Positions 1-55,500 of a stretch of DNA of 64,000 nucleotides are shown in pieces. The position numbers and the translations under genes were made by a program. This stretch comes from an uncultured Clostridia bacterium (GTDB taxonomy: Bacteria; Bacillota; Clostridia; TANB77; CAG-508). Under the pieces are notes generated by a model. That model worked only from the letters and a program-made list of their open reading frames with translations, was not told where the DNA came from and did not search any database. Each line of letters opens with the position of its first letter. Within the stretch, counting starts at the first letter, position 1. The DNA lies in NCBI GenBank assembly GCA_944390285.1, contig CALXPN010000002.1, forward strand, positions 157,762-221,761, given 5' to 3'.

Positions 1-1126
1 TTAAATTTACTAATTCATCATTTTCAGATACTGCTAAATAGTACTGATCTTTACTTACAGGTGTTTGAGAATTATCTGTATAAATTTCCATATTATTAAT
101 AAATGAAAATGGTTTATAATCTACATAATCAATTCTAAATGGTCCTAATATATATTTTTGGCTTATAGAATCAAAACTAACTGTTGCTTCTTTACTTGTA
201 GAAGTAAAGTTTGGATCTATATCTATAGCAAAACCTGTGAAAGTTTGTCCATCTTCTGTAGTATATTGAGTTCTTTCTCCTCCTGCTGCTGTGTTTACAT
301 AGTTTTGGAAATCAAATGCTGCTTCACTTATTTCATTTCCACCAGAACCACTTTTTGTTACAGCCCACCATGCATATTGAATAGGTGTATATTCATTAGG
401 ACTACCTATTGTACAATTATCTACTTCAGATAATACTATAGCTTCTGCTGGTGTACATTCTTTATCTACACCTGTATATTTACTTGAAGTTCTGAAATAT
501 TTTTCATAACTTTGAACTTTTTTATCAAGTTCTGCAATTTTGGCCATTGCTTCATCTGCTTCTTTTAAAGAATATGTTTCGGTAACAGGATATTCTAATC
601 CTTCTACTTGTGCAATTAATTCTGTTATAGTTGGATCATCATGTTCCCAATAATTTCCTGTTGCTTTGTAGTCTTCTACATAATTATTTGTTCCTGTTAA
701 TCCAGTCCCTTGTGCTGTACATAAAAGTCCTACCTCGTTTTGCAAATCTTGATACCAGATTTCTCCATTTGCACCTGGTTGGAAACCAGAATCTGCAGAT
801 ACTACTTCTTTTTCAAATCCATCGACTCCATTCCAACTCCAAGATATATTTCCATCATTTCCTCCAGCACCTGCTCCTTCATAAAAATCTAAAACTCCAT
901 CATCTATTTGAAGATCTACATCTTCTGAGCTTCCACCTTCATATTTTATAATTCCATCTGTAAATCCCATGTTTTCCCATTCAGGTGGACCATCATTTAT
1001 AGCTGAGTTTGCAAGCATTGGAAGTGCTCCTGCAAATACTTTGTAGATGATACTAATTATAGAAAATATTATTATAGCAATAATTAGAATTCTGTTTTTT
1101 AGGACTGTTTTTCTATCATTTTCCAT
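1..1126 (-). CDS. Large surface protein, N-terminal part (runs off the window)
   Basis: Incomplete CDS starting at an ATG at 1126 and open to the window edge, so at least 375 residues. It begins with a short basic stretch and a hydrophobic segment (about residues 13-29) ending near VFAGA, a signal peptide or anchor. The next 340 residues are acidic, Gly/Thr/Asn-rich and look extracellular. A Cys-containing LLCTAQG motif is followed about 125 residues later by TPIQYAWW. Together these resemble the Cys and Gln motifs of thioester-forming adhesin domains; that is inference. The start is one base after the stop of the large surface gene at 1128-6647, so translation is probably coupled. It corresponds in position to the second half of the 3908-residue protein at 33740-45466. 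Function unknown beyond being a probable adhesin. Confidence 0.75.
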   Translation of the reverse strand, partial: MENDRKTVLKNRILIIAIIIFSIISIIYKVFAGALPMLANSAINDGPPEWENMGFTDGIIKYEGGSSEDVDLQIDDGVLDFYEGAGAGGNDGNISWSWNGVDGFEKEVVSADSGFQPGANGEIWYQDLQNEVGLLCTAQGTGLTGTNNYVEDYKATGNYWEHDDPTITELIAQVEGLEYPVTETYSLKEADEAMAKIAELDKKVQSYEKYFRTSSKYTGVDKECTPAEAIVLSEVDNCTIGSPNEYTPIQYAWWAVTKSGSGGNEISEAAFDFQNYVNTAAGGERTQYTTEDGQTFTGFAIDIDPNFTSTSKEATVSFDSISQKYILGPFRIDYVDYKPFSFINNMEIYTDNSQTPVSKDQYYLAVSENDELVNL

Positions 1127-1127
1127 A

Positions 1128-6647: not shown

Positions 6648-6711
6648 AATATTAACCCTTTCTTTAGTAACGTTTGACATAGTATTCTTTATTTACTATT
6701 TTATAAATAAT

Positions 6712-32437: not shown

Positions 32438-33601
32438 TTATTTCTTTTCTTCTTGTGGGTAAACTTTTTCTAAGAACCCTTTTTTATTTCTATATTCTAT
32501 GATATCTTCAAGCATTAGTTTTAAAAATGCCATAACAGGAACTCCTAAAAACATTCCCAAAACGCCAAAATAAGCTCCGCCTATTGTAACTGAAAAAATC
32601 ACTAAGATAGGACTTAAATCCAGTGAATTTCCAAGTATTCTTGGGTTTATAATATTAGCATCTATTTGTTGTAATATTATTACTATAATTCCAAGCCATA
32701 TTGCTTGAATAAAACCACCTGTAAAAATTGTTATTATTATAGCTATTATTACAGCTGCTATTGCACCAAAATATGGTATTATATTAAATAATCCTATCAT
32801 AAAACCTAATAAAATAGCATATTTTACACCCATTATACTCATTGCTATTGAAGTTATTATTCCTATTATAATAGCATCTAATATTTGTCCAGATATAAAA
32901 TGGAAAAAAATACTATTTGTTTTTTTATAATATCTTCCAATAGCCATATTAGTTTTTTTACTAAAAATCGCTTTAGATAATTCTACTAAAAAGTTTTTTA
33001 TATTATTTCTTTCAAGTAATATATATATTGAAACTACAATTGTTACAAACGAGTCAAAAATTATATTTGCAGCTCCCATAATTCCTTTTATATATGAATT
33101 TATATTATCTAAGCTAATCCATTTTATTATTTCTTTTGCAAAATCAAATTCTTGTAATGATTCAACATAACTATTTATATTTAATCTTACAAGTATTGAA
33201 TTCTCATCTAAATTATTAAAATAATCTATTGCACTATTATAGTAATTTGGAAGATTTTCTGTTAAATCTTTTACACTTGTTGTAACTGCTGGAATAATAA
33301 AATTAATTATTACAAAAATTAATAATATTGAAATTATATATACTAATAAAACACTTAATCCTCTTGCATGTTTTTTAAATATTTTAAATTTTATTCTTTT
33401 TATTCCACTTTCTACACTTTTACATGGAATATACAATATATATGCTATTAGTATTGCCATTAAAAATGGCATAATTAAATCAAAAAAATTAATAATTCCA
33501 GTTATTACACTTGAAACACTATCTATAGTTTTATATACAACTATAGCTGCTACTGCAAAAGAAAACCAAAACAACCACTTTTTCCATTCTTTATTATTCA
33601 T
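32438..33601 (-). CDS. AI-2E family transporter (PerM/YtvI type)
   Basis: Membrane protein of 387 residues with about seven or eight hydrophobic helices. Conserved signatures are DSFVTIVVSIYILLERNN in the middle and ILGNSLDLSPILVIFSVTIGGAYFGVLGMFLGVPV near the end, typical of the AI-2E/PerM family. Members export small molecules or act as Na+/H+ antiporters; the substrate cannot be read from sequence. A basic tail (YRNKKGFLEKVYPQEEKK) ends the protein. It is transcribed alone, downstream of the giant locus B gene. Confidence 0.88.
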   Translation of the reverse strand: MNNKEWKKWLFWFSFAVAAIVVYKTIDSVSSVITGIINFFDLIMPFLMAILIAYILYIPCKSVESGIKRIKFKIFKKHARGLSVLLVYIISILLIFVIINFIIPAVTTSVKDLTENLPNYYNSAIDYFNNLDENSILVRLNINSYVESLQEFDFAKEIIKWISLDNINSYIKGIMGAANIIFDSFVTIVVSIYILLERNNIKNFLVELSKAIFSKKTNMAIGRYYKKTNSIFFHFISGQILDAIIIGIITSIAMSIMGVKYAILLGFMIGLFNIIPYFGAIAAVIIAIIITIFTGGFIQAIWLGIIVIILQQIDANIINPRILGNSLDLSPILVIFSVTIGGAYFGVLGMFLGVPVMAFLKLMLEDIIEYRNKKGFLEKVYPQEEKK

Positions 33602-33739: not shown

Positions 33740-36700
33740 TTATTTATAGAATTTTTTGAATGTTACATTTTTCAAACTTCTCTTTAAAATTATTACTACT
33801 ATAACTACAGCTATTACTATTGCAACCATTACAATTTGATCTCTTGCTATACTCAAATAATATTCAGCTTTCTCAAGACCAGTAGGCGGTGCAAGTGTTA
33901 TTCTTTCTGTAAAGTCTGAGTCATCTTCATATTCAGGATTTGAATTCATATTTAAGTTACCAACTGTTGTTGAAAGCTTTGTTACTCTACCTGTTACAGA
34001 AGTATATTCTATAATTTCTGCACTATTGTCATAAACCATATCTTCTGTATCAGATTCACCTGAAACTACTTTTGAAGCTACCATGTAAACACTTCCTGCA
34101 CTCTTAGTAAAATCTGAAACATGTGGTTTTAAGAATATTGATAAAGCTTTATTTAAGTTATTACTATCATTTTCTGATATTCTATCATCAACAGATACTG
34201 CTAAATTATGTCTTGTGTCTACATCATATGTAACATCATCTTCGTCTAATAATTGTTTTACACCCTGTACTTGTGTTTCTCCATCTTGTTTTATTGTCTC
34301 TTGAATTACCTTAAATATTCCTGGTGCTACTAAACCTTGATCTAGTAATTCATCATCTGCCATTGTTCTCCAATATCTATTTTCTGCTTGATTTTTATCT
34401 TGTTGCATTGTCATATTATTATCTACATAATCTAAGATTTTATTTACTTTTAATTCTGCAACTATATCATTTGAACCAACATTTCCTGAATAATATGTTT
34501 CACCTAAGTATTTTCCATAATATCCGTTTGTTCCATCATAAGTTGTTTTTTCTTCAGTTCTATATGTTGCTCCATCTGTTTTAAAGTATTTAGAGTATAA
34601 TTCATTTCTTGCTGTTCCTGCTGCAGTATACTCATCATCAAAATATTGTTCATATCCAGTTGCATCAACTTTATATCTTAATTTATATAAATTTTGACTA
34701 ATTCTGTCTACTTCACTATCATTGTTTACAGAAAATACATATGTGATATCTACTGTACAACCTTGAAGTATATCTTCATCCACATTTAGATATGCTAAAC
34801 CTTTTACATCATCTACTGTTGGAAGATATTGTAAGTTTTCATATCCTACTGATGTTTCTGTATTAATTGTTGTTCCAATAATTCTTCCGCTTTGCACTCC
34901 ATCTGCTTCTTCATATACATTATCAAAATTAATGTCTGCTAAAATATTTCCGTCTGAAGTTGTTAATTTAATTTCAGATATAAATTCTTCTATACTTACA
35001 TTTACTTCTGGTCTATATTCTATACCAAAATCAATGTTTTCTACTTTATATCTTAAATCACTGTTTACTCCTGATTCATATTGATCAAATGTATACTCTT
35101 TTATGTCATATGTTGTTTTTTCTGCTCTTATAGGGAAGCTTTCAGTATTTGCATTCATATTTGTATTTTCCATGAATTCTTCTGAATATTCTTCAGGTGA
35201 ATTCTTTTGAGCTTCTTCTGTTTTTCTATTATTTACTGTTTCACTGTATCTTATTACTTCTAGTCTTCTTATCTCATCATCTCTTGCATCTGATTTGTTT
35301 TCCTCTTCAAGAGCACTTAATACTTTATCTCCTGAATCTGGTTCTTCTGTGATTTTATCATCTATATTATAATATGTTGTTGATTTATATTCTTGTCCAT
35401 TATAGACAACATCTTCTACACTTTCACCATAATCAAATCTTACTATATATTCACCAGGTATAAATGATTCTAATGTATATGAACCATCTTCAGATGTTCT
35501 TGTAGTCATAATTGAATCATCCCAAGTTTTGATAGATTCTTCATAAATTCTGTTTTCACCATTTTTTGGAACATTTACTATTTCTACAAGATTTACTTTT
35601 ATTCCTTCAGCAGGTTGATCTGTGCTTTCATCTAGTAATAAATTATCATGTTCATCTACTTTTTGGTTACTTGCAGCTTCTGCAATTTTACTATCTACTC
35701 CGATATTTTTTATACCATTACCACGATATTGTGTATCTCCTCCTTGTCCAGAAGTTGTAGATCTTGCATCATCCCATACACTACCTTTTATAACTCTTTC
35801 TAAAGTTCCTTCATTATCTGTATCTTCAGGATCATCTGGGTCTGGGTTATCAGAATCTCCATCTTTTAATATACTTAATGTAACACCTGTTTTATAAGCA
35901 TCATTTTCGTATTCACTATAATCCTCAATACTTGCATTTTCTGTTCCGTTTGGATTATTTGCATCTGTTTGTAATCCAAGGTTACCTGGATTTGAGTTAG
36001 TATCTACATATCCAGCTGGTCTATTATCATCTGCATAATATGTTGAATATGCATTTATCTCTACAATATTATTTTTATCACCTAAGAATTGGTTTGTAGC
36101 TGTTGTTCCATCTTCTGTATCTACAACAAATTTAATATAAATATCAAAACTATCTCCTTCTGATAAATTGATATTGTCAAATCCACTTAAATATACAACA
36201 TCATATTTTGCTTCTCCTCTATCATTTGTACCTAAATCTACTTTTGCATGTTCAGGATAAATTGGAGTATTACTTAAAGTTACTTCACCTGTGATTTTTT
36301 GATTATTTGAATCTATAAATTCATACCAAGCTTCTACATTGTTTATAACTTTATCTTGTAAATATCCATCTTCACCCATTACTTTAATTGTTTTTGTATT
36401 ACTATTTGGATCATATTTTATGAAATCTTGACTATAGTAATCAACAACTTCTCTTACTTTAGTATAAACATTGTTATCATCTTGTACATCATGATTTGTA
36501 ATTGTCATCTTATATGTTATTTCTGTATTTAATTCTGTATTTACTTTGTAATCTACTACATCTTGATTTGTATATTGTGTATGTTTATAGTAGTAGTCTG
36601 ATGCATATAATTTGAATTGATAATTAATTGGATTCTGTTCTCCACCAGTTACATATTCTCCACCATAAGGTGAATTTGATTTATTACCTTGGTCTAGAAC

Positions 36701-39700
36701 ATATGTCATTTCTGTTCCATTTACTGTTGTTTTTAAACTATAAACATCTTGATCTATACTTATATCAAAATCTCTAGTTTGTAAACCTAAATTGATGTAT
36801 TTTAAGTATTCTGTTTCTCCTTCTTCTGAGAAGAATAACATATTTATGTTTTTACCATCTTGTATGTTACCATTATGTGGTTGATTTTGCATTATAAAAC
36901 TATATGCACTCATACCAGAATTTTCTGTTAAATCTAATGTACTTATATGTCCATCTTTTGTATAAGTAATATTTTGTGTATTATTTCCGTTTTCTACAGT
37001 TCCGTTAATACCTTTATTGTATTCTATTGTTTCTAAGTTATTATTAAACTCATCTCTAACATCTGAATATTCATAAGCATTAGAGTCTGTCATATATGCT
37101 GTTGTTATTGAATTATCAGCTTTATTTATATTTTGCATACCATCATTTCCAGCATATATTGTTGATGTATATCTTACACCATTATAATAGAATTCTACAT
37201 AGTAATTAATATATTCACTATTTTCATTATAATTTCCTGTTGTATCATCTCTATTTGTAGCTTTTATAATTCTTCCGCTATTGTCGCCACCTTCAACCAT
37301 TTTCTTATTAGAATCTGATCCATCTGCATTTTTACCATTTGTTTCACCAAATAAGTAATTTCCTTGTGCATCTGTGAAGGTTGTTGCAACTTTTTTATTT
37401 GTATCATCATGTAATATTACTTCTATTCCTGATAATTTACCTTCATTATCATCCATTTTTCCATCTCTGTTTGTATCTACCCAAACTTTACCAGATAGAA
37501 CTAAGTTCTTTAGTCTTACATATTCGATATTATCGTTATTAGTATATTTAATCATATCTATTGGTATTAAATCTATCTCATTTCTATTAAATATACTTGT
37601 AATCTTAAGTTCATTCTTTAAGTTTAATAAATACATATTTGATTTTGTAATATCACATTTTAATTCTATTACAATATATTCACCAGCATTTAATTCTCCT
37701 GAATAATTATATGTAATCTGATTTCCATTTACAGTTTCCTTAATATTTGAAGATGTAGAATCTTTTGATCCATTTGACTTATATTTTGTCATTGACACTG
37801 TTTGAGAATATGTTAATCCATCTTCTAAAGTATCTACAAGTGTTGCATTATTTAATATTGTTGTACCTTTATTTCTTAATACAATTGTATATACTATATT
37901 ATCATATTTTTCTACTTCAACAGGAGAATCATATTTTGCAGTATTTGTCATACTTTCTCTTCCTGTAACAGCTTGTGAATTATGACTAGATAAGTATTTT
38001 CTTACTTCTAATTCATATATTTGATATTCCATTGTTGCAGTTGAACTAGTTGGAACTATATGTGTTAATGTTACATTATTTTTATTTACTGCTGTTGACA
38101 CTGTTGCTGTATTTGAAATTTGGACTTTGTCTTTACTTTGTAATATTACTTTCATATTTATAGTTAAAGTTGCTGTTTGTCCTGGTGCTAAAGGTCCATT
38201 ATATGTGTATTTTGTATTACTATTTCTTGTCCATCCACTTCCACTAGCAGATAAGAATTGTAATTGACCTGCATCAAATGTATCATCTAAAACTATTCTG
38301 TAAATATTACCAAAGTCTGCTGAACTTCTTCCTGTATTTTTTACTTGTATTGTATATGTAATTGTATCTCCTAATTCACATTTTGTAAGATCTGTTACTT
38401 TACCATTGTTTATACTGGTTACTTTCTTAGATACGCTAATATTATATCCAAGTATTTTTACAGTAGATTCACTCTTTAGGTTAGAATTTATTAAGTATCC
38501 TCCATTAATCAAATCTACACTATTTCTATTTCTAGCAGACACTATTTCTACATAATTTGTTCTTGATTGTGATTCTTTACTTAATAAGCTTTCAGTAACT
38601 CTCATGCTAATATATTTTGTAGTTGTTCCACCAGAATTCAATGTTGCCTCATATACATAATTATTTCCTTCTTTCGTCCAACCACTTGATTCTGTTACAG
38701 CAAATCCATCCGGTACTGTTTCTGAAACCTTATATGTAATTGCTCCATATGCATCAGAAGCTGAACCATTATTATTTTTAACTACAACTTTATATTGAAT
38801 TACATCTCCTACTTCAACTGAATTTACTGTTGATTTTGGAGCACCATTTGCACTTGTTATAGCATTTACTGTTTTTTCTATTGAAATATTATATTGTTTA
38901 CATTTTACATATGTACTATCTTTTGTTTGATTTCCTTTTTTATTTATTGTAACTTTGTCACCAATTCTAAAGTTACTAATTTCGGCAGTATTTGTTAATT
39001 GTGTGTTACTATCAGCAGATACATTTTCTTTAACTCTTAATGCTACATAATATGTATATTTTGATTTCTTTGGAAGTGTAATATTATTTTTAGTTATTGT
39101 ACCTCCACTTACATTACAGTCATTAGTATTAAGATCTTCATGATACATTCCAACAAATTCATATTGGTTTGTATCAAATGTATCTTTTAAGTCAATTTTA
39201 ACTGCCATTCCATTATTTTGCATTACTATTTTAAAGTATACTATATCTTTTCTATCAACATAATCGCCTTCTTTAATGTTAGTTCCTGTACTATATATGT
39301 TTTCATTTGTAAGTGATTTTCTTATAACTTCTTTTGTTAAAGTAACGTCTGCGACAGAATCTAATTTGTATTCAGCTTTTGTAGGCTGTGATCCTTTTTT
39401 ACCTCTTAATAAAGCTCTATTTTGACCACTACCATCCAAAAAAATACTAAGAATTCTAGCCTCATATACTTCCATAGATGCACTAATTTTCACTCTTACT
39501 TTATCTAAGTCAGCATCTCCAAATGCAGAAAGCGGAATATAGAATTTCTTTTCGCTACAATTACTTGTATTGAAATCTACTAATGTACCTGATGCATTTA
39601 ACACTTTTCCTGAATATTGTGTATAAGAGTCTCCAGAATTTGTTGAGATTTCTAATTTAGCATTTGTTGGAAATTTTGCATAAATAGCACCGAAACCATC

Positions 39701-42700
39701 AATATTTGAATTATACTGTAATTTTTCGGTATTATCCTTTTTAGATACTCCTCCACCACTTGCTTCAAGATTGTTAGCGTAAGTTTCTCCTTCTCTCTTA
39801 GCTCTATTATAATTCTCTTTATAAGCTGGTGTCTTTTCGTCTTCATAACCAGTTACACTTAAATTCAACACTGCATTTATATTTCCTGAATTATCCCTTA
39901 AATAATGTGCCATGAAGTTTTTATAATAATAATCATCTCCAATACTTCCATATGAAGTATTCTCTGCTATGTATCCCATATATGCTAATACTGCTGCTGT
40001 TTTACTATCATCCGATTTTGTTCCACTAACTGAATTAGCATCATAATGTAAACCTTTAATATCTGTTATACCAACAATTTTTCTATATTTACCACCCTCA
40101 TCATTACTTATATTAGCACCATGTATACACATATCCGTAGGATTACTATCTGGATTATTAACAGCTACTTCAGTTCCTTTATAAAAATTTCTTGTTAAAT
40201 ATGTATTTATATTCATACTAACATAATCATCCATACTGTCAGCTGCATAGACTTTTATTATTATGCATAATATAGAAATTATTATTAATGAAATTACAAT
40301 TATTAATTTATTAATAAAATTAACTTTTTTCTTATCATCTTTTATTAGCTTACTTACTATAAGCATAGCTATAAATGCTATTGCCAAAGCTACCAATATA
40401 ACTATAATATAATAAACTGCACCTGTTTTTATACTTAACATTACTTCTACTTCTGAGCTATTATTTTCTTCATTAGCATCAGATAATTGTAAATCATTTG
40501 TAGATTCTAATATCTGCGCTGTATTTTTATAAACACCTGTTGTCTCACCATTCACTGCTTTTGTTAAGATTAATGTTAACTCTTCTGTTTCTCCAGCTTC
40601 TATTAATTTTTTACTCAATGATGTACTATATAATGCACCATCTTCTCCCATTTGCCAATTAGGATTTAATGTTTCATTAAATTCAAAGCCTTCTGGTATA
40701 TAATTAACTATTTGATTAATATATCCAGCAGTTTTTGCATTATTAGTAATTTTTACTCCATATTCTACGGTTATATTACTTGAATTTATATATTTAGAAG
40801 CTATTTCTATTTTAGCTATTCTATCATCTTCTGTAAATTCTTGTATATCTGTTCCTTTTTCATTTTCTGTTGTTATTTTTTTAACATAAGTTGTTATTGC
40901 CATATCAAAATCAGAATTTTCTTTTATTCCCATATTGATATTTATAATGTTTTTATCAGAAATTTCTATTATATCAGATACAGCATAATATTTTTGTTCA
41001 TTATTTAAAGTAATATTTTTTGAGAATACACTTGATGACTTAGAATCTATTTTTCCATTTGCTTGATACGTTGTAACTTCATATTTTGTATTGTCATAAT
41101 CAAATACAACAACATATTTACCTGAATCTAAATTACTAAATACATATTCACCATTATTATTTGTAGTTGTTTCATCAACTATATTAGAATCATTTAATGA
41201 AATTTCGGAATTATCACTATTTAAAAGCATTACTTTTATATTACTCAATAATTCTTCATCATTAAATATACCATTTTTATCTTTATCTAACCATGCCTTG
41301 CCTGAAATAGAGTATTTTATAGAATTTACATTTTGCATAGTAAGTTCTTCAGGTATATTAGATTGAGATTCTTCTGTAGTTTGATTTTGATTGTTTAAAT
41401 TATTATTTACATTATTATTATTTTGTTCATCATTTTGATTATTAGATTGGTTATTGTTTTGATTATTATCATTGTTTATACTTAAATCATTATTACTGTC
41501 ATTATTATCTTGATTAATATTTTGTGAATTATTATTTTCGTTTTCAATAATATTTTGTTCTTCTTCATCTGAATTAATATTTTCATCTGAGTTAATTGTA
41601 TTATCTATAATATTACCATCGTTTTCTTCTAAATTCTCATTGTCTTCATCATCTGGCACTCCATCATCCGGTTCTTGTGGAAGTTGTGATGGATCAACAT
41701 AAAATACAATTTCTTCTATATCTGTTCTGTTTATTTCTGGTAATATTTCTAAATCATTTTCAATTGTAGTTTGATTTGTTCTTAAATCATCAATATCCAC
41801 GACACTATCTATATCAATTGATAAGCTTTGTTGTGGTTCTAATGTATAATTTGTCATAAAATAATTATATTCTGTGATTTCTAAATCCTCTTGACTTCCA
41901 TCTGGTAATGTTAATTTTACACTGCCAACATTTAAACCATATGGAAGATAATTTGTTATATCAACAAGTCCATTTACTAATCCTGTATTTTGAATTTGAA
42001 TATTATATTTAACATCATCATTATCTTTAACAATAGAGCCATTTTCTCTATTTGCTGTATAGTTAACATTTAAAAATGTTTCACTTTGAGTAACTATTCT
42101 TGTATATTCATTACTTAAATATAATTGTCCATCAATACTTGCATTTGATGTTACTGTAGCTATTGTTTCTAAAATGTTTAAGTCTATACTATCAATATTA
42201 GTAGCAATAGTTAAATTTTTACTTTCTCCTTTTTCAAGTGTTGGAATAATAAAACTAATCATTTTTCCGGTTGATGTATCTTGTGATGAAATTGTTACAT
42301 TCTCATTATAAACTTCTGTTTCAGCTTGATTAAAAATAAGTAACTCTGGCACAATTAAATTTACTTTAATATTTTCTAAATCATCATTAGAAATATTTTT
42401 TATAGTGGCAGTTAAATTATACATATCCTTCGTATATATCTTCATTATATTAGCATCTTCTTTACCAGATCTTGTTAATGAAAGCTCAATTTTTGCATCT
42501 CTTATTTTATTTTTAATTGTTTGATATTCTTTTTCTTCAATTCCATCTGCTGAAATTATTATTTTTCCATATACTTCATCTGAATTTGCATCTTCTAATT
42601 TTTTTACTTTTACTTGATAAGAAAATGTTTTTGTCTCACCAGGTAAAATAGAATCTATTGTTCCTTCTTCATATATATGTGAACTATCTGTATCTTCTTT

Positions 42701-45466
42701 CCATTCACCTGTTAAAACTTCTGTTCCATCTGTACTACTTGTTGTTGTATATGTATACCAATAATAACTATTAGTATTTTCACCATAACCTTGTAATTTT
42801 ACATTTGTTATAGGATTACTTGTATTATTTGTTAAAACAACATTATATCTTAATATTTGACCTTCATTTATTTGGTCATTTTCATCAACTGTCTCTCCAC
42901 CTCTTGTAACTTGTGTTCCTATTGTTAATTCAGGAGTTTCTTCTATAACTTGACAATCTTCCATAGCTAAAGCTTTTACTTCAGATTCTAAACCTAGTAT
43001 TGAGCTATCAGCTACTTCTTGATTATTTAAATTATAATATGTTGTAATCAAATTATATGCTGATGCATTATAACCTACATTTTCTGGTATATTTAAATTG
43101 TAAGAAATTTCTATTTTTTCTCCAACTTTCATTGTAGGATTTTCTACTACTACTTTAAAGCTTTTTATTTGTGAAAAATCAGTAATATTTTCTTGCCAAT
43201 TTCCACTGTCTTTATCAGGATTTTCTTCTGTTGAATAATATACTTTTCCTACTAAACCATTTAATGTTACAGGTCCTGCTAAGCTTGTATTAAATGTTGT
43301 GTTTAAATCTACACCGTCTTTTGTATTTCCTATGTATGGTATTTTTCCAACCACCTGTACATTTCCTATTTCATTTGCATAGTTATTCATTACAACTGTT
43401 GAAACTTTAGCAGTTTTTCCTGTATTGTTTGCTTCTATTGCTCCTACTACTGTTTCATCTTCATATGTAACTAAAACATCATTTGCATCATTAAAGTTTT
43501 CAAGTTTTGCTTCTTTTAATATACCACTTCTTGAAACATAATTAACTTCTACATCTTCACTAGCTTTTCCAGCTACTTCATAAGATATATTATTTCCTGC
43601 TTCATTTGTATATCTCAATTTTACTGAACTTTTTCCATTTGCTGTTATTTTATTTAAGTCTAAATTTGCTGTTATTAATACTGTTGTTCCTTCAATTAAA
43701 GTTCCTGGTGCATATTCTGCTTGTGTACCCTCTAAAGCAACTTGAATTGTATTTGTTCCCATTTCATTTTGAACAACATTCCAACTACTTAATGATAATC
43801 CATTTTTATACATTAAATTAACATTTTTTATTTCAACATTTTGTACAGCTGAAGGTAATTCAATAGAAATTGTAGGGTTTCTAAATAAATCATATCTTTC
43901 TTCATTTGTTTTTAATGTTACTGAAAAAGTAACTTCATTTTGTTCTGTTGTAATGAAATCTGTTTTATCTAATTCTAATGTCATTTTAGATTCTGTTTCT
44001 TCTAAATTCATACTACTTTCAGATTGAATTTGTTGAACTATTATTTCATTATCATTTACATTTTTTGCTATTTTATTTACAGAACTAAATTTAATTGATT
44101 TAAAAGAAGAAATATATTCTCTTGAAAAATCATCTGTTCCTTTTAGTACTTTATCATTTTTTATGTTTAATGTTTTATTACTTTCTGCATTTATTATTCT
44201 AAATATAACTCTATCTACATCTGTAGAATAATTAAATACATATCTATTATTTACTATTTCTGAAGACTTGTTTATTTCTCCTAATTTTTCACCTAATACA
44301 TTATATATTTCTATATAACCACCAGATCCTAAAATTGAATCAAACTCATCAACACTAACAGAGCTTGTTTTATAAGACACTTGGTTTATTAAATCTATTT
44401 CACCTCTTGTGTCTGAAACAAACTTATCTATATTATTTTCAACTATAATTTCATCTATAAAATTAGCGTCTTTTACATCAACCACATTTGTTGTAGTATA
44501 TGCAATATCTTTCTTATTTTCTAATAGATTATTTGCATATAAATATCCTTTATATCTACTAGATGTATCTGTATTTAATGAATAATTTGCTAAAGGTTCA
44601 GAAGTTTCTTTAGCTTCTTGTGTTTCATTAAATTCACCTAATACTTGATATCCTTGAACATTTACTTTTACTCCACCATTAATTTTTACTTCTGTTCCTG
44701 AAAAAGTTTCTTCAGAATATATTAATGTCATTCTCAATTCTTCTTCATAGTGGTTTACAACTTCATTAATAGTTAAGTAAATCTTTTTAGCTTCGTCATC
44801 TTGAACAATTTCCATATTATCTGATATTTCTTCTACTTTATATATAGTAGGTAACACATCAGATATATTAGGAAGAGTAAAATCAAGCTCGACACTATCT
44901 ACATCAAAATCTTTAGTATCAATATCAAATTTAAATGTTAAATCTACTAAAGTTCCTTTTCCACTTTCATTATCATATTTTATTAATTTATTAATTTGTA
45001 ATCCAGTATTAGCAGTTATTTCTTGAAGTGCTTGTAATTCTTCTTCTGAAAGTTCAGGCTGTGTTTCTTCTGGAACTGTAGTATTTAAATCTACTTCATT
45101 TTTTTCCTCTTCAGAAACTATCTCTTCAGAAGTTTGATTTTCTTCATTTTCTACTACATTTTCTTCTGAAACTTCTGCAGTATTTTCTTCTGAAATTTCT
45201 TCTCCTGGAAGCTCTTCTACTGGTTGTTCTTCATTATTTGTAGTATTTTCTGAAGTATCAGTTTCTCCTTCCTCTTCTGGATTAATTTGGCCATCATCTT
45301 CTGTTCTTACATTGCTTGTGAAATCAGATTGCCATTCAACTTCTGTTGCTAAAGCAATATTAGAAAATTCACCTAATATCATTATATGATTAGCAAGTAA
45401 ACTAATCACAAAGGCAATTACTAATATCTTTTTTAGCACATTAATTCTCCCCTTATTCTTTTTCAT
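33740..45466 (-). CDS. Giant 3908-residue DUF11/SdrD-B surface protein (locus B, apparent fusion)
   Basis: One uninterrupted frame. Part one: signal segment (about 10-38), Glu-rich spacer (45-150), beta modules, and DUF11-like units (about 850-1240). An Asn/Gln-rich linker (about 1310-1370), an SdrD-B unit (AWLDKDKNGIFND, about 1380) and Lys-Thr-Gly plus a membrane helix (about 1675-1700) end it. Part two begins after about 15 cytoplasmic-type residues with another signal-like helix (IIVISLIIISILC, about 1713-1735). It has a DMCIHG domain, four DUF11-like units (about 2035-2600), SdrD-B units (about 2655 and 3235-3350), APPTGLE, a final helix and a basic tail. The whole would form two extracellular arms joined by a membrane hairpin. 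A GGAG site precedes the ATG. Confidence 0.9.
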   Translation of the reverse strand: MKKNKGRINVLKKILVIAFVISLLANHIMILGEFSNIALATEVEWQSDFTSNVRTEDDGQINPEEEGETDTSENTTNNEEQPVEELPGEEISEENTAEVSEENVVENEENQTSEEIVSEEEKNEVDLNTTVPEETQPELSEEELQALQEITANTGLQINKLIKYDNESGKGTLVDLTFKFDIDTKDFDVDSVELDFTLPNISDVLPTIYKVEEISDNMEIVQDDEAKKIYLTINEVVNHYEEELRMTLIYSEETFSGTEVKINGGVKVNVQGYQVLGEFNETQEAKETSEPLANYSLNTDTSSRYKGYLYANNLLENKKDIAYTTTNVVDVKDANFIDEIIVENNIDKFVSDTRGEIDLINQVSYKTSSVSVDEFDSILGSGGYIEIYNVLGEKLGEINKSSEIVNNRYVFNYSTDVDRVIFRIINAESNKTLNIKNDKVLKGTDDFSREYISSFKSIKFSSVNKIAKNVNDNEIIVQQIQSESSMNLEETESKMTLELDKTDFITTEQNEVTFSVTLKTNEERYDLFRNPTISIELPSAVQNVEIKNVNLMYKNGLSLSSWNVVQNEMGTNTIQVALEGTQAEYAPGTLIEGTTVLITANLDLNKITANGKSSVKLRYTNEAGNNISYEVAGKASEDVEVNYVSRSGILKEAKLENFNDANDVLVTYEDETVVGAIEANNTGKTAKVSTVVMNNYANEIGNVQVVGKIPYIGNTKDGVDLNTTFNTSLAGPVTLNGLVGKVYYSTEENPDKDSGNWQENITDFSQIKSFKVVVENPTMKVGEKIEISYNLNIPENVGYNASAYNLITTYYNLNNQEVADSSILGLESEVKALAMEDCQVIEETPELTIGTQVTRGGETVDENDQINEGQILRYNVVLTNNTSNPITNVKLQGYGENTNSYYWYTYTTTSSTDGTEVLTGEWKEDTDSSHIYEEGTIDSILPGETKTFSYQVKVKKLEDANSDEVYGKIIISADGIEEKEYQTIKNKIRDAKIELSLTRSGKEDANIMKIYTKDMYNLTATIKNISNDDLENIKVNLIVPELLIFNQAETEVYNENVTISSQDTSTGKMISFIIPTLEKGESKNLTIATNIDSIDLNILETIATVTSNASIDGQLYLSNEYTRIVTQSETFLNVNYTANRENGSIVKDNDDVKYNIQIQNTGLVNGLVDITNYLPYGLNVGSVKLTLPDGSQEDLEITEYNYFMTNYTLEPQQSLSIDIDSVVDIDDLRTNQTTIENDLEILPEINRTDIEEIVFYVDPSQLPQEPDDGVPDDEDNENLEENDGNIIDNTINSDENINSDEEEQNIIENENNNSQNINQDNNDSNNDLSINNDNNQNNNQSNNQNDEQNNNNVNNNLNNQNQTTEESQSNIPEELTMQNVNSIKYSISGKAWLDKDKNGIFNDEELLSNIKVMLLNSDNSEISLNDSNIVDETTTNNNGEYVFSNLDSGKYVVVFDYDNTKYEVTTYQANGKIDSKSSSVFSKNITLNNEQKYYAVSDIIEISDKNIININMGIKENSDFDMAITTYVKKITTENEKGTDIQEFTEDDRIAKIEIASKYINSSNITVEYGVKITNNAKTAGYINQIVNYIPEGFEFNETLNPNWQMGEDGALYSTSLSKKLIEAGETEELTLILTKAVNGETTGVYKNTAQILESTNDLQLSDANEENNSSEVEVMLSIKTGAVYYIIVILVALAIAFIAMLIVSKLIKDDKKKVNFINKLIIVISLIIISILCIIIKVYAADSMDDYVSMNINTYLTRNFYKGTEVAVNNPDSNPTDMCIHGANISNDEGGKYRKIVGITDIKGLHYDANSVSGTKSDDSKTAAVLAYMGYIAENTSYGSIGDDYYYKNFMAHYLRDNSGNINAVLNLSVTGYEDEKTPAYKENYNRAKREGETYANNLEASGGGVSKKDNTEKLQYNSNIDGFGAIYAKFPTNAKLEISTNSGDSYTQYSGKVLNASGTLVDFNTSNCSEKKFYIPLSAFGDADLDKVRVKISASMEVYEARILSIFLDGSGQNRALLRGKKGSQPTKAEYKLDSVADVTLTKEVIRKSLTNENIYSTGTNIKEGDYVDRKDIVYFKIVMQNNGMAVKIDLKDTFDTNQYEFVGMYHEDLNTNDCNVSGGTITKNNITLPKKSKYTYYVALRVKENVSADSNTQLTNTAEISNFRIGDKVTINKKGNQTKDSTYVKCKQYNISIEKTVNAITSANGAPKSTVNSVEVGDVIQYKVVVKNNNGSASDAYGAITYKVSETVPDGFAVTESSGWTKEGNNYVYEATLNSGGTTTKYISMRVTESLLSKESQSRTNYVEIVSARNRNSVDLINGGYLINSNLKSESTVKILGYNISVSKKVTSINNGKVTDLTKCELGDTITYTIQVKNTGRSSADFGNIYRIVLDDTFDAGQLQFLSASGSGWTRNSNTKYTYNGPLAPGQTATLTINMKVILQSKDKVQISNTATVSTAVNKNNVTLTHIVPTSSTATMEYQIYELEVRKYLSSHNSQAVTGRESMTNTAKYDSPVEVEKYDNIVYTIVLRNKGTTILNNATLVDTLEDGLTYSQTVSMTKYKSNGSKDSTSSNIKETVNGNQITYNYSGELNAGEYIVIELKCDITKSNMYLLNLKNELKITSIFNRNEIDLIPIDMIKYTNNDNIEYVRLKNLVLSGKVWVDTNRDGKMDDNEGKLSGIEVILHDDTNKKVATTFTDAQGNYLFGETNGKNADGSDSNKKMVEGGDNSGRIIKATNRDDTTGNYNENSEYINYYVEFYYNGVRYTSTIYAGNDGMQNINKADNSITTAYMTDSNAYEYSDVRDEFNNNLETIEYNKGINGTVENGNNTQNITYTKDGHISTLDLTENSGMSAYSFIMQNQPHNGNIQDGKNINMLFFSEEGETEYLKYINLGLQTRDFDISIDQDVYSLKTTVNGTEMTYVLDQGNKSNSPYGGEYVTGGEQNPINYQFKLYASDYYYKHTQYTNQDVVDYKVNTELNTEITYKMTITNHDVQDDNNVYTKVREVVDYYSQDFIKYDPNSNTKTIKVMGEDGYLQDKVINNVEAWYEFIDSNNQKITGEVTLSNTPIYPEHAKVDLGTNDRGEAKYDVVYLSGFDNINLSEGDSFDIYIKFVVDTEDGTTATNQFLGDKNNIVEINAYSTYYADDNRPAGYVDTNSNPGNLGLQTDANNPNGTENASIEDYSEYENDAYKTGVTLSILKDGDSDNPDPDDPEDTDNEGTLERVIKGSVWDDARSTTSGQGGDTQYRGNGIKNIGVDSKIAEAASNQKVDEHDNLLLDESTDQPAEGIKVNLVEIVNVPKNGENRIYEESIKTWDDSIMTTRTSEDGSYTLESFIPGEYIVRFDYGESVEDVVYNGQEYKSTTYYNIDDKITEEPDSGDKVLSALEEENKSDARDDEIRRLEVIRYSETVNNRKTEEAQKNSPEEYSEEFMENTNMNANTESFPIRAEKTTYDIKEYTFDQYESGVNSDLRYKVENIDFGIEYRPEVNVSIEEFISEIKLTTSDGNILADINFDNVYEEADGVQSGRIIGTTINTETSVGYENLQYLPTVDDVKGLAYLNVDEDILQGCTVDITYVFSVNNDSEVDRISQNLYKLRYKVDATGYEQYFDDEYTAAGTARNELYSKYFKTDGATYRTEEKTTYDGTNGYYGKYLGETYYSGNVGSNDIVAELKVNKILDYVDNNMTMQQDKNQAENRYWRTMADDELLDQGLVAPGIFKVIQETIKQDGETQVQGVKQLLDEDDVTYDVDTRHNLAVSVDDRISENDSNNLNKALSIFLKPHVSDFTKSAGSVYMVASKVVSGESDTEDMVYDNSAEIIEYTSVTGRVTKLSTTVGNLNMNSNPEYEDDSDFTERITLAPPTGLEKAEYYLSIARDQIVMVAIVIAVVIVVIILKRSLKNVTFKKFYK

Positions 45467-45732: not shown

Positions 45733-46116
45733 TTATGAGAATATATTTTTAATATGATTAATAAAATAATTCTTCTTATTTATATATACTTCTATAATAT
45801 CAAATCTAATTAATTTATTATCAATTTTATTCTTATATATGAAATATCTACTCACATCTAATATGTGCTTTATTTTTTCAGCATTTACAGCATCTACAGG
45901 TTTTCCATAAGTTCCTGAACTTCTGCTTTTTACTTCTATAAAAACATATTCTTCCTTATCTTTTGCAATTATATCTATTTCTCCTTGTCTGCTCACAAAA
46001 TTTTTTAAAAGAATCTTATATCCTAATTGTTTTAAATATTTTGTAGCTTTTGTTTCCCCAAAGTTTCCTAAGTTTTTTCTATAATTTGAATTTTTTATAA
46101 TTTCTTCTTTTTTCAC
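45733..46116 (-). CDS. yraN: YraN/UPF0102 family protein (predicted nuclease fold)
   Basis: Protein of 127 residues with the restriction-endonuclease-like core typical of UPF0102: GNFGETKATKYLKQLGYKIL, then QGEIDIIAKDKEEYVFIEVKSRS, where the E, D and ExK residues form the expected metal-binding site. Probably acts in DNA repair or recombination, but the family is poorly characterised. The GTG start overlaps the dprA stop by four bases (GTGA), so expression is coupled. Confidence 0.88.
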   Translation of the reverse strand: MKKEEIIKNSNYRKNLGNFGETKATKYLKQLGYKILLKNFVSRQGEIDIIAKDKEEYVFIEVKSRSSGTYGKPVDAVNAEKIKHILDVSRYFIYKNKIDNKLIRFDIIEVYINKKNYFINHIKNIFS

Positions 46117-47015
46117 TCACATTCCTCCTGTTTTTTTATCATATATTTTCCACTAATTTGTCTATAAATTAAATTTTTAAGTTCCATTTCCATCAAAAGT
46201 GTAATTACTTCTTTATATCTAAGTCCTGAATTTTCAATTAAATCTTCTAAAAATTTACCTTCATCTTCTATTAGTTTATAAATTTTTAAATATTTTCTAT
46301 CAACTTTGTTTAGTTTTTTTATACTGGTTTTCCTCTTTTTATTCATAAATTGTGGATAATGTTCTATAATATCATTTATATTAGTTGTTAATATTGCTCC
46401 TTCTTTTATAAGCTTATTTACACCTATTCCAAGATAACTATCTAATTTTCCAGGTAGTGCAAAAACTTTTTTACCTTGATCTTTCGCATTATTTGCTGTT
46501 ATACTTGTCCCACTTCTATATGCCGCTTCTATTACTAAAACTCCTTCAGAAATTGCTGTTATTATTCTGTTTCTAGCCGGAAAATTTCTTTTATATGGTT
46601 CTACATTTTTCTCATACTCTGTAATTATAAGTCCATCATTCTCTAAAATTTCATAAAAAAGTTCTGTATTCTCTTTTGGATAAATATGATTAAATCCACT
46701 TCCAAGTACTGCTATTGTTTTTCCACCATACTTTAAAACTGTTTTATGAGCAACAGCATCTGTTCCTATTGCCATACCACTTACTACTGGTATATCTCTA
46801 AAAGCAAACTCTTTTGAAATTTTTTCACAATTTTCTTTTCCATAATCTGAAATTTTTCTTGTTCCAACTATTGCAAAACATGAATCATTTAATAATTCTA
46901 TATTTCCAACTCCATATAATACTTTAGGAACTTTTTTTATTTTTTTTAATTTTTCAGGATAATCTTTTTCTTCTAACTTGATAATTTTATATTTTTCCTT
47001 AATCTTCATTCTCAT
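46113..47015 (-). CDS. dprA: DNA processing protein DprA
   Basis: Protein of 300 residues that loads RecA on incoming single-stranded DNA during transformation. The Rossmann core is clear: FAIVGTRKISDYG, VVSGMAIGTDAVAHK, IAVLGSGFNHIYP, RNRIITAISEGVLVIEA and GTSITANNAKDQGK. The C-terminal winged-helix-like domain (about 235-295) is present. The start ATG has GGAG 5 bases upstream and overlaps the end of comM by 17 bases. Confidence 0.95.
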   Translation of the reverse strand: MRMKIKEKYKIIKLEEKDYPEKLKKIKKVPKVLYGVGNIELLNDSCFAIVGTRKISDYGKENCEKISKEFAFRDIPVVSGMAIGTDAVAHKTVLKYGGKTIAVLGSGFNHIYPKENTELFYEILENDGLIITEYEKNVEPYKRNFPARNRIITAISEGVLVIEAAYRSGTSITANNAKDQGKKVFALPGKLDSYLGIGVNKLIKEGAILTTNINDIIEHYPQFMNKKRKTSIKKLNKVDRKYLKIYKLIEDEGKFLEDLIENSGLRYKEVITLLMEMELKNLIYRQISGKYMIKKQEECE

Positions 47016-48516
47016 CTAAACTCCTATATTGTATTGCTTCTATTACATGTTCTAATTCTACACTTTCACTTTGTTCTAAATCTGCTATTGTTCTTGCTAC
47101 TTTTAAAACCTTGAAATATGCTCTTGTTGTCATTTTCATTTTCAAAAAATATTTATCTAATATTTGTTTTGCTTTATTTTTTAATATACAATATTTTTCT
47201 ATTAAATTAGGTGTCATTTCTGAATTAGAATAAATAGAATATTTTTTATATCTTTCATATTGTATTTTTCTAGCAATATTAACTCTTTCTCTTATTGCTT
47301 TTGAATTTTCTATATCTGTATCATTTAATTCTTTATATTTTATTGATGATACCTTTATATGCATATCAAATCTATCTATAATTGGCCCACTCAGTTTAGC
47401 TCTATATTTTTTTATTTGTTTTTCAGTACAAATACATTTTTTTAATTTACTTCCATAATAACCACAAGGACATGGATTAGTACTTGCTACTAGCATAAAA
47501 TTAGCAGGATACGTTACATTCATTCCCACTCTACTTATATTTACAGTTTTATTTTCGATAGGGATTCTTAAAAGTTCTAATGTACTTTTATTAAATTCTA
47601 AAAATTCATCTAAAAACAATACTCCCATATGTGCCAAACTTATTTCTCCAGGTTTTGGTATTTTTCCTCCACCTATCAAAGCTGTATTTGTAATTGTATG
47701 ATGTGGACTTCGAAAAGGTCTTTTTTTCATTAAAAAATCATTTTTTAATATTCCAGCTACACTATAAATTTTACTAATTTCTAATGCCTCATCAAAACTC
47801 AAATCTGGCATAATGCTTGGAATTCTTTGTGCCATCATGGTTTTCCCGCATCCAGGACTTCCTATTAGTAAACAATTATGACTTCCACTTGTTGCAATTT
47901 CTAATGCTCTTTTTATCGTTTGCTGACCCTTAACATCTATATAATCTAAAATATCTTCATTCTTAACAACATTTGTTACTACTTCTTGTTCTTCTTTAAT
48001 ATTAATTTTTCCATTCAAATAATCTATACATTCATTTAAGTTTTCTACTCCTACTATTTTTATTCCATTTATTATTCTTGCTTCTTTAGCATTTATTTTG
48101 GGTAAAATAATTTTTTCTATTTTTTGTTTTTTAGCTTCTATACACATTGGTAGAACACCATTTATTTTATTTAATTTACCACTAAGTGATAACTCACCTA
48201 TAAGTATCATATTATTAAAATCTTGATTTTTTATAATGCCAATAGATTTTAGGATTCCTATTGCAATTGGTAAATCTAGTAAAGTTCCTGTTTTTTTTAT
48301 GGTAGCTGGAGATAAATTTATAATATATTTTCTACTTAATAATTCTATTCCACAATTTTTTATTGCTGTTTTCACTCTTTCTTTTGCTTCTCTTATATTT
48401 GTATCTGGTAATCCCACTATATCCCAACAAGGCATTCCTCCTGATACATCAACTTCTACATTAATTAAAAATCCCTCTAAACCATGTAAAACTATACTTT
48501 TTATTACTGATAACAA
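46999..48516 (-). CDS. comM: ComM/YifB family AAA+ ATPase (Mg chelatase-like)
   Basis: Protein of 505 residues. ComM helicases extend branch migration during integration of transforming DNA. The N-terminal Lon-like domain (about 1-170, SIVLHGLEGFLINVEVDVSGGMP) precedes the AAA+ core. Walker A is GSPGCGKT (about 213) and Walker B LFLDEFLEF, with NPCPCGYYG and the C-terminal domain following. The start is a TTG at 48516, 6 bases after AGGAGG. First gene of comM-dprA-yraN, with its own promoter and a leader of about 170 bases. Confidence 0.95.
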   Translation of the reverse strand: MLSVIKSIVLHGLEGFLINVEVDVSGGMPCWDIVGLPDTNIREAKERVKTAIKNCGIELLSRKYIINLSPATIKKTGTLLDLPIAIGILKSIGIIKNQDFNNMILIGELSLSGKLNKINGVLPMCIEAKKQKIEKIILPKINAKEARIINGIKIVGVENLNECIDYLNGKINIKEEQEVVTNVVKNEDILDYIDVKGQQTIKRALEIATSGSHNCLLIGSPGCGKTMMAQRIPSIMPDLSFDEALEISKIYSVAGILKNDFLMKKRPFRSPHHTITNTALIGGGKIPKPGEISLAHMGVLFLDEFLEFNKSTLELLRIPIENKTVNISRVGMNVTYPANFMLVASTNPCPCGYYGSKLKKCICTEKQIKKYRAKLSGPIIDRFDMHIKVSSIKYKELNDTDIENSKAIRERVNIARKIQYERYKKYSIYSNSEMTPNLIEKYCILKNKAKQILDKYFLKMKMTTRAYFKVLKVARTIADLEQSESVELEHVIEAIQYRSLDENED

Positions 48517-51571: not shown

Positions 51572-52438
51572 TTACTTTATATCTTTATATTTTACGTATC
51601 TATTATAACTTACTATTGCAAGTATAATTAATACTATTGCTGGTACTATAATTACTTTAGCACCTGTTGCTGGCAAAATTCCTGATACTGTATTGTCGTC
51701 TTGATTTCCTGCAGAATTTGTGTTTGAATTTCTGTTTGTATTACTATTTGTGTTACTATTTGAATTTCTATTTGCATTTTGGTTAGTATTTTTGTTTGTA
51801 TTTTTGTTAGTATTTTCATTTTTGTTTTGATTATTATCGTCATCATTATTATCACCAGCAGAAGCTGATTTTATTGTTAAAGTAACGCTTTTAGTAATTT
51901 CCTTAGATTGTTCTGATCCTGCAGTTATAACAAACATTGAATATGAAATTGCATCTTTAATTTCACCTTCTGTTGCATTTTCTTTTACTTTAAAATCTAT
52001 TTTTAATAAATCTTCATCTGTTGTTATTCCATCTTGAAAATCAATAACTATTCTTGAATTATTATCACCTGATGGATTCCCATTAAAAGCTACATATGAA
52101 GATGATGTTGGGATTTCATTTATATTAGCATTTGTTAAATCCTCAACTTTTAGTGTTTCATTTCCTATTGTTACAGTATTATCTTCATTTTTTTGAATAC
52201 TATCTACACTAATAGCTTCAATAACATTTGTATTATAATTAATATATCCTTCTATACTTTCAACTTTTTTACTGCTATCTACATCTTGTAAAGATAAAGT
52301 TACTGTTACAGTATCTCCTTTATTTAAAGATGTACTTGATGCTGATAATCCAATTGTAGTGCTAGCAGCATAGACACTTGTGCATAATAGTATTAAAATA
52401 ATAAATACTTGTACTAATATTAACTTATTTTTCTTCAT
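51572..52438 (-). CDS. LPXTG-anchored cohesin-like surface protein
   Basis: Protein of 288 residues. The start is taken as the ATG at 52438, 10 bases after GAGGAG; ATGs at 52456, 52447 and 52444 are alternatives. The signal peptide (about 1-25) ends at VYAA. A single beta-sandwich domain (about 28-190) fits the cohesin pattern: TSLNKGDTVTVTLSLQDV, EGYINYNTNVIEAISV, SRIVIDFQDG and LKIDFKVKENATEG. An Asn/Asp/Thr-rich linker (about 193-245) spans the wall. The sorting signal is LPATG, a hydrophobic helix and a basic tail (YNRYVKYKDIK). The domain probably binds dockerins; a dockerin ends the neighbouring upstream gene. It has its own promoter. Confidence 0.85.
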   Translation of the reverse strand: MKKNKLILVQVFIILILLCTSVYAASTTIGLSASSTSLNKGDTVTVTLSLQDVDSSKKVESIEGYINYNTNVIEAISVDSIQKNEDNTVTIGNETLKVEDLTNANINEIPTSSSYVAFNGNPSGDNNSRIVIDFQDGITTDEDLLKIDFKVKENATEGEIKDAISYSMFVITAGSEQSKEITKSVTLTIKSASAGDNNDDDNNQNKNENTNKNTNKNTNQNANRNSNSNTNSNTNRNSNTNSAGNQDDNTVSGILPATGAKVIIVPAIVLIILAIVSYNRYVKYKDIK

Positions 52439-52476
52439 AATCATCATTCTCCTCATTTGCTTGCTTATACACTATA

Positions 52477-52593: not shown

Positions 52594-55500
52594 TTATTTT
52601 TTGAAGTTTAAATCATATCCTGTTACTTCAGCTCTATGATATAATAATAATTTAGCATCTGTAACATTTACAACTCCATCATTATTTATATCAGCAGCTT
52701 CGAATTCATATCCTTCTAAAACTTGTACTTCATTTCTATGTGCTTTGATTAAAACTGTATCTAATGAATTTGCATATCCATCTCCATTAATGTCACCTTT
52801 TACAACTACATGATATGCTATTTCATCTCCGTTTTCATCAACTGCTGTATTTCCATTTGTATCTACAAGTTTTACTTCCATACCTGTTGTCATATATCCT
52901 GATGTAATTTCTCTATTATCTTTTGTAACTTCTACAGTATATTCTAATCCATTTAAGAAAATTGATTCAAAATCTTTTATTGGTGTTTTAGCAGCTACAT
53001 TTGTTAAATAAGTATTTTCTTTATCATATCCTAAATCATCTGGATCTACTACTGAACCTGTAGGATCATCTGGATCTACTGTATTATCACCTGGATCTAC
53101 TACATTCTCACCTGGATCTACTACATTCTCACCTGGATCTACTACATTCTCATCTGGATCTACTACATTCTCATCTGGATCTACTACATTCTCATCTGGG
53201 TCTACTACATTTTCATCTGGATCTATTACATTCTCGTCTGGATCTACTGTATTTCCTGGATCTATTACATTCTCGTCTGGATCTACTGTATTTCCTGGAT
53301 CCACTGTATTATCATCATCTGATATTCCAGGATTTGATGGCAATTTTACTTCTACCATATCTAGTACACTTGGTTTAAAGTTTGATCTTGCAATAACTAG
53401 TATACTATCAGATTCTTCATCTTCTCCAATTGTTAATAATCCTTCTGGTGAAATAGTTGTATTTTCACTTGAATTATCTTCTACTTCCCATGTAACTGTT
53501 TTATCATTTAAGTCTTCCCCTTCAACTGTTGCCATAAATTGTATTGTATCTCCATTTTCAGCTTCTAAATTATCTGATGGATAAATTCTTACACTATTTA
53601 CTGTTCTATCTTTTACTGTATAATAAATTGTTGCTGTTGTTCCTTCTCCTATACAAGTTTCAACTTCTTCACCATTTCCACTCATTGCTAAAACAACAAC
53701 TTTTCCCATTTTATCTCCAGTTGTTCTGGTATTTAATGTTACATATGTACCTTCTGATTCTATTCTACCATTTTGACTTGTTTCACCAAAAGCTGTTCTT
53801 TCAGTATCTATTGCTAATAATTGTGTAAATATTTTTGGCAATTCAACATCAATTGTTGTAGGATAATCAGATAAGTATATAGGATCATATACTCTAAGTT
53901 CTATATTTTGTTTACTTAAATCAATATTAATTGTATCTTCTCTTGCTAAATAATTAGCATAATCTCCACCTGAAATATAATCTAAATATACTAATAAACT
54001 TTCAATATCAGTAATTTGATTTCCAGATAAGTTAAATTCTAACATATTTTTAAATAATTTTTGATATTGCTCTTCAGGAATATCTAATTTTCCTGCAATC
54101 AAGTTATTACTTAAATTTAATGATTTTAAATTTGGTAAATTTGTAAGTGGTGTAATATCTGAAATATAGTTATAAGCTAAAGATAAATTTTTCAATTTAG
54201 TCATACTAGCCCAATCTACATTTGAAACATCTGCTATATAACAATAACTTGCATCTAAATTATATAAGCTTGTTAATTCTGCAATTCTTTCAATATTTTC
54301 TAATTCGGCATTATATGATATATCCAAATCTTTTAATCTTGCAAGTGTAACATATCTTTCAACATCACCATTTAATAATTTATTAGCTAATGTTATCATT
54401 TGATTATATAAGAATCTTACATCTTTTTCTCCTAAATAATCATCATTTATTACTTCATATAAATCAACTGTATTTATTATTTGATCTGCTCTTTGTCCTA
54501 ATTTTCCTAAAACATATTCAATATTAGCTTGGCTTGCTGTATCAGATTTTGCTGCATTTAATGCATTTGTGATTAATTCATCTTGTGTATATGCTGTATA
54601 TTCTACAAGCATTTTATCTAATGGTATATATTCTCCTTTACATGCATTTACTATAATTTCATCAGAATCTTCATTTGTATAAGTAGCATATCTATTTACA
54701 TAACTTTTGTATGTGTCATATAATGAACTATATGATTTATTTTCTTTTATTGCACTTAAAACTGCTTCTTCTAAAGGTGTATCAATATCTTCTATATCAA
54801 AATCACTTATTTTTCTTTCAAGATATTCTTCTTCATAGCAATATCCTGATGCTGTATCTACATTCATTCTTTTAATTAAACAGTAATTTGCCATTTCAGA
54901 ATATAATGCTATTTCTCTAATTCTATTTATAATATCTACTGTTTCTGTTCTACTAAAATTATTTTTTTGTAGAAGTTCATCAAAATAATCTGCAAGAGGT
55001 GTTTTTGTTTTTGTTGTATCAAAAACTACACCAAACTCTTTAGTAAACAATAATTTATCTAAATCTGATAATCCATTTTGTGTTTCTAATGTTTTTAAGA
55101 AACTGATTTCGCTATTTAATAAAGCTTTAGCACTTTCTGCTGATTCATGAATTGCTTGATCATATGCTTGATATTCCTCATAATTCATGTAATTTAATTC
55201 TGGACTTAAAAGAGTTGTTAATTTATATTCATCAACATATTCTAAATATAATATTTGTAAATAATAGTATATTTCATTTATTGAATTATTAATCTCATCT
55301 ATTGCTCCATCAAATTCTTCTCCATTAGCAGTATAGCCTTGAATTAAATCCCAATATCCTGGTTTATAATTTCCTTCATCATCTGTTTTTCCATAAATAT
55401 CATCTAAAATTGCATTTATTGAACTAGCTTTTGACTCTAAATCAGACTGATAATTTTCTTTAGTTGTATCTACATCTGCAGCTTCTGCTAAAATATTTAA

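Follow-up and report, generated by a model that had tools for sequence, protein, structure and literature searches.

How does a single open reading frame come to hold two giant surface proteins, and would the cell that reads it display one product or two? The gene that raises this question lies on the minus strand at 33740-45466 of the window, by which we mean the whole 64,000-nucleotide stretch analysed here, and runs as one uninterrupted frame of 3908 codons encoding a fused A+B surface protein of 3908 aa. Within the family, the usual state is two giant adhesin-like surface proteins, A and B, from neighbouring genes, which repeatedly appear instead as one protein of about 3,900 residues. The account that we somewhat favour from the sequences is that the gene represents a conserved fusion of an operon-partner, wall-anchored pair, working as a polyprotein that is cut into two chains. 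Its neighbours on the same strand are dprA and comM upstream (46113-48516) and an AI-2E transporter gene downstream (32438-33601), both syntenic in relatives. Elsewhere in the window, a cohesin-domain protein (51572-52456, minus strand) adjoins an LRR protein of 1498 aa (52594-57090, minus strand) whose C-terminus carries a dockerin, a possible adjacent cohesin-dockerin pair.

The anatomy of the product, all of it encoded on the minus strand, reads as two surface proteins in succession. The A part would begin with a signal peptide (residues 1-40, 45347-45466, ending NIALA/TEV, the boundary being placed by reading the sequence), followed by a long, predicted extracellular stalk (40436-45346) in which the best stretch of similarity to an SdrD B-like domain (Pfam PF17210) spans residues 1387-1486 (41009-41308). 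It closes with an internal sorting-type motif, SIKTG (residues 1678-1682, 40421-40435), identified from column counts over 99 A genes, and a predicted stop-transfer helix, helix 1 (about residues 1683-1707, 40346-40420), which is also helical in the structure model. A Lys-rich, predicted cytoplasmic turn follows (1708-1720, 40307-40345), with the inter-helix break of the model at about 1708-1711; this basic loop reads KDDKKKVNFINK. Helix 2 (1721-1741, 40244-40306), the predicted internal signal of B, ends KVYA/ADS (1738-1744), with a cut predicted after VYA and a signal-peptidase score of 16.2, against a median of 3.0 for A anchors. The preliminary description had placed a C-terminal-type ending inside the frame with a second signal-like helix behind it, and both are present; no stop codon lies between 40240 and 40440, and the frame is open throughout. 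Beyond helix 2 come a thioester-domain-like head (39347-40243), DUF11 and SdrD_B repeats recognised by Pfam (one of several DUF11 repeats, PF01345, at residues 2357-2460, 38087-38398), a C-terminal sorting-type motif, APPTG (3859-3863, 33878-33892), and a membrane anchor (33782-33835) with a basic tail ending KKFYK. A is best described as a predicted DUF11/SdrD_B stalk, and B as a predicted thioester-domain-like head on a stalk of the same repeats.

The unfused arrangement occurs in the same window, at locus A, where an A gene of 1850 aa (1128-6680, minus strand) ends in SIKTG, a helix and KRKWVI, followed by TAA, one base and the ATG of a B gene, of which the window holds only the start (2-1126, minus strand) and which encodes 3103 aa in the complete genome. 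This is the two-gene version that had been proposed. The N part of the fusion (about 1711 residues) gives two blastp alignments with the locus A gene, one of 345 aa at 37% (E 2e-56), the other of 951 aa at 24% (E 6e-47). The C part showed no similarity to the 375-aa in-window piece of the locus A B gene and matched full-length B genes from outside the window at 34% over about 550 aa (E 1e-38). Both halves are thus homologous to the expected partners, and the proposal of an in-frame fusion of two surface proteins stands, the fusion being conserved in many species. Locus A itself belongs to a run of giant surface genes in tandem A-B-A-B order at about 135.9-164.4 kb of contig G000:C2 (L012 and L013; window 2-6680). 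Across the 89 split pairs of the genus, B starts between 22 bases before and 5 bases after the A stop in 61 and 8 to 18 bases after it in 28, and the two genes share a reading frame in 17. Type-1 A genes typically end GGTGTTTAATATG, an ending that puts the B start immediately after the A stop, so that the Shine-Dalgarno (SD) sequence of B probably lies within the end of A.

Both states recur among related genomes. The window genome is of uncultured gut-type Clostridia, probably of the GTDB order TANB77, and the closest RpoC among the named genomes scanned, from MAG ABMPRH_54_1, is 88% identical. Of the 53 genomes of the genus that were searched, 50 carry A genes, about 100 in all, seven of them fused at the same junction (in G000, which is the window genome, G015, G017, G031, G019, G027 and G004) and about 95 unfused; G004 carries a fused gene together with an adjacent split copy. 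An A-type match is present in 329 of 388 genomes of the order, nearly all in the family of the window genome, and other genera of that family add at least 14 genes with the fusion at this position, the junction being open in all 14 that were read and showing the same series of xTG, helix, basic loop, helix and export-signal-like end. Wherever the contig shows it, the seven genus fusions sit in a neighbourhood of 3D/G5, comM, dprA, AI-2E and rpoB genes; their exact slot within the comM/dprA/AI-2E/rpoB neighbourhood varies, and the G031 contig is too short to show it. We give almost no credence to the idea that the fusion is an artefact of assembly or sequencing, or that the gene is a decaying pseudogene. 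All of the genomes are multi-contig assemblies, and some fused frames break further into B (about 220 residues into it in G027, later in G354 and G221), as such an explanation would have it, but at least 21 genes of diverged species have open junctions with consistent anatomy, and complete fused frames of about 2,700-4,080 aa occur in 14 assemblies. Because seven genus genes are fused at one point and form one clade, the fusion is neither chance nor assembly error. Apparent frameshifts, real or due to assembly error, break A or B frames at L055 (G027), L308 (G354), L309 (G221) and L061 (G009). Separately, the fused genes of G246 and G410, which belong to different genera (L302, L303), have identical A tails and the same junctions, through either a recent transfer or a mis-binned contig.

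The clade of seven genus fusions received an SH-aLRT of 98 in a tree of 102 A genes and bootstrap/SH values of 99/97 in a tree on about 1500 columns. The longer A tree groups the other-genus fused genes (13), the genus fused genes (6) and the split type-2 genes (7) in its inner clades, with SH-aLRT values of 97-100, and every outer row is split. Such a topology would fit two separate fusion events or a single old fusion with one re-split equally well. Many independent fusions were considered and dropped, as a single clade of all fused A tails was not rejected (p-AU 0.285). The B-tail tree places the fused tails in three positions, and a history of three separate fusions was rejected in turn, the B heads leaning towards the history of the A part. 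Specifically, the B heads of the displaced members are nearest, or about as near, to other fused heads (clearly for G027 with G019, weakly for G004), and for this reason we prefer tail exchange; the B tails of the G004 fusion and of G027 look as if exchanged with split copies, the adjacent copy in the former and split relatives in the latter. On contig G004:C5 (L048, L153), where the split and fused copies are adjacent, the two B tails group as sisters, a pattern that gene conversion could produce.

Does the fused gene still yield B on its own? Split B starts (n=89) are preceded by strong SD pairing (median -12.0 kcal/mol), whereas candidate internal starts at the seven genus junctions pair no more strongly than -3.8 kcal/mol, and other-genus junctions mostly lack an SD, with a few weak SD-like values of -4.9 to -5.6. 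From this difference, the window gene most likely yields B only within the fusion product. Internal initiation yielding a separate B is highly improbable; an in-frame ATG within helix 1 is common to four fused genes, as that explanation would want, but no SD stands near the internal starts in the seven genus members, and starts past helix 2 would leave B without a signal peptide. Since B lacks its own SD, any stop would silence it, and such a ratchet could alone maintain the frame, so that frame conservation is in itself no proof that joint synthesis is useful.

If the two are made together, the remaining question is whether they stay together, and the junction carries the evidence. All seven genus members combine a predicted stop-transfer helix with an internal signal helix and no independent B start, and in 7/7 the spacing from TG to the predicted cut is 58-60 residues. 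The helix-loop-helix segment is 67% identical among four relatives, against 32% in the 100 residues that follow, and the structure model predicts a helical hairpin. Conserved, fixed in its spacing and hairpin-like, this segment speaks for an uncut membrane hairpin with two giant extracellular arms tethered through two membrane helices, the main rival to cleavage and, in our estimate, an unlikely one. Against it stand the cut-site features. Scored with a weight matrix built from the signal peptides of the 89 split B genes, helix 2 gave 16.2, 8.4, 12.3, 7.1, 11.2, 5.5 and 15.3 in the seven genus members, above the A-anchor controls (median 3.0, 95% 8.9; p 4e-5), the lowest values being those of G017 (7.1) and G031 (5.5); other-genus genes scored lower, several from -0.3 to 5.3 (p 0.04 for the set). 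By a simple rule, a site with Ala at -1 occurs in 14 of 20 fused junctions, where 8.0 were expected in shuffled tails and 12 of 2000 shuffles reached 14; it occurs in 79 of 89 split B genes, at 8 of the 20 helix-1 ends in these fused proteins and in 36 of 95 A anchors, making the excess in fused genes a moderate one (Fisher p 0.009). These features lie above controls overall and are strong in G000, G015, G019, G027, G255, G081 and G221, and cutting by sortase at SIKTG would likewise part the arms.

The preliminary description had envisaged an uncut, two-armed hairpin. Its out-in-out topology follows from the sequence and the predicted helical hairpin; its persistence as one protein fares less well, as helix 2 keeps a signal-peptidase-I-like region in all seven genus members, weakly in two, and in many others, making separation into two chains at least as likely. 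The weak scores in G017, G031 and several other-genus genes suggest that some members may remain uncut. It seems doubtful that this gut Clostridia lineage presents a pair of giant adhesins as a single tethered and uncut chain whose path runs out of the cell, back in and out once more, and we know of no bacterial example of this surface architecture. Partial cleavage at a slow internal site, giving tethered and free forms and so a processing switch, would accommodate site scores that span -0.3 to 16.2 among the fused members, but this variation may be mere drift, and we regard such a switch as improbable. Taken together, the cut-site excess, a hairpin conserved above the B N-terminus and the presence of signal peptidase I and sortase genes in the window genome favour processing into two chains. 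In the two-chain account, ribosomes would produce A and B in a single chain, and Sec would export A up to the point where helix 1 halts translocation; the basic loop would remain cytosolic while helix 2 restarts export, now of B, threading the chain out, in and out again. A signal peptidase I cut after helix 2 would then free the N-terminus of B, which would be anchored through its C-terminal xPPTG signal, with A either kept in place by helix 1 or linked by sortase at SIKTG. Two surface or wall proteins would thus be produced in a fixed 1:1 ratio.

The B head bears on what would be delivered. Outside the type-2 lineage, the majority of split B heads have a Cys close to the N-terminus together with a QxAWW-type motif, both marks of thioester-domain adhesins (PMC4450167, PMC6194298). 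In the fused heads, Cys1780 (40127-40129) is aligned in 7/7 genus members and Gln2015 (39422-39424; 235 residues after the Cys in G000) in 6/7, the G027 frame ending before the Gln, while the QxAxW-type helix motif is absent from these heads and from their split sisters. The AlphaFold model of the fused head (pLDDT 75) has the Bacillus anthracis thioester protein BaTIE as its top Foldseek match in the PDB, with an E value of 2.5e-4 and a low TM of 0.20. Like the TIE/thioester adhesins BaTIE and SfbI, B has an N-terminal head with a Cys, a distant Gln and helices between strands, borne on a repeat stalk with a C-terminal sorting signal (PMC6194298, PMC4450167); unlike them, the fused form has no Pfam TED match and lacks the [YFL]C and TQxxPhiW motifs, and B is here joined to a second surface protein. 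On sequence and model, we infer that the head is that of a thioester adhesin or of a degenerate form. PD-L1 profile matches of the head (E about 0.08) were judged to be chance.

Both proteins show sortase-type anatomy, with a signal peptide and a C-terminal motif, helix and basic tail. Of 89 complete B ends, 88 have an xPPTG-type motif, and 82 of these carry T at its fourth position; the A motif has the consensus [TSL][VI][KSR]TG; the canonical LPXTG is absent, B ends reading [TS]PPTG and A ends [VI]xTG. The B end, with its helix and basic tail, resembles the (S/P)PXTG signals of Clostridioides difficile SrtB substrates, from which it differs in organism and in motif-to-helix spacing (PMC4155245). 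NVQTG, which the A motif resembles, was not cut by SrtB in vitro (PMC4155245). The window genome (1.66 Mb) has eight sortase matches over the cut-off, none of them on contig C2, which carries the substrates studied here.

Our literature search on internal sorting signals found nothing usable, and polyproteins parted at an internal signal sequence are, to our knowledge, rare in bacteria. Bradyrhizobium FbcH is one, a polyprotein of cytochrome b and c1 with proven cleavage at an internal signal sequence. As there, two normally separate exported proteins would be made as one chain and parted at an internal signal-type helix; the difference is that FbcH yields respiratory proteins by a demonstrated cut, whereas the products here are giant wall-anchored adhesins and their cut is inferred. 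Flavivirus-type polyproteins, which are processed by host signal peptidase (PMC7601889, PMC5402940), share the order of anchor helix, loop, internal signal helix and signal-peptidase cut (here a predicted one), and differ in being viral and in using the ER membrane. A fused pair of adhesins, retained across many species, offers a natural test of signal peptidase on internal signals in giant wall proteins. It also bears on why partner surface proteins would need a fixed ratio, and on the role of the ubiquitous A-B pair in this uncultured gut family.
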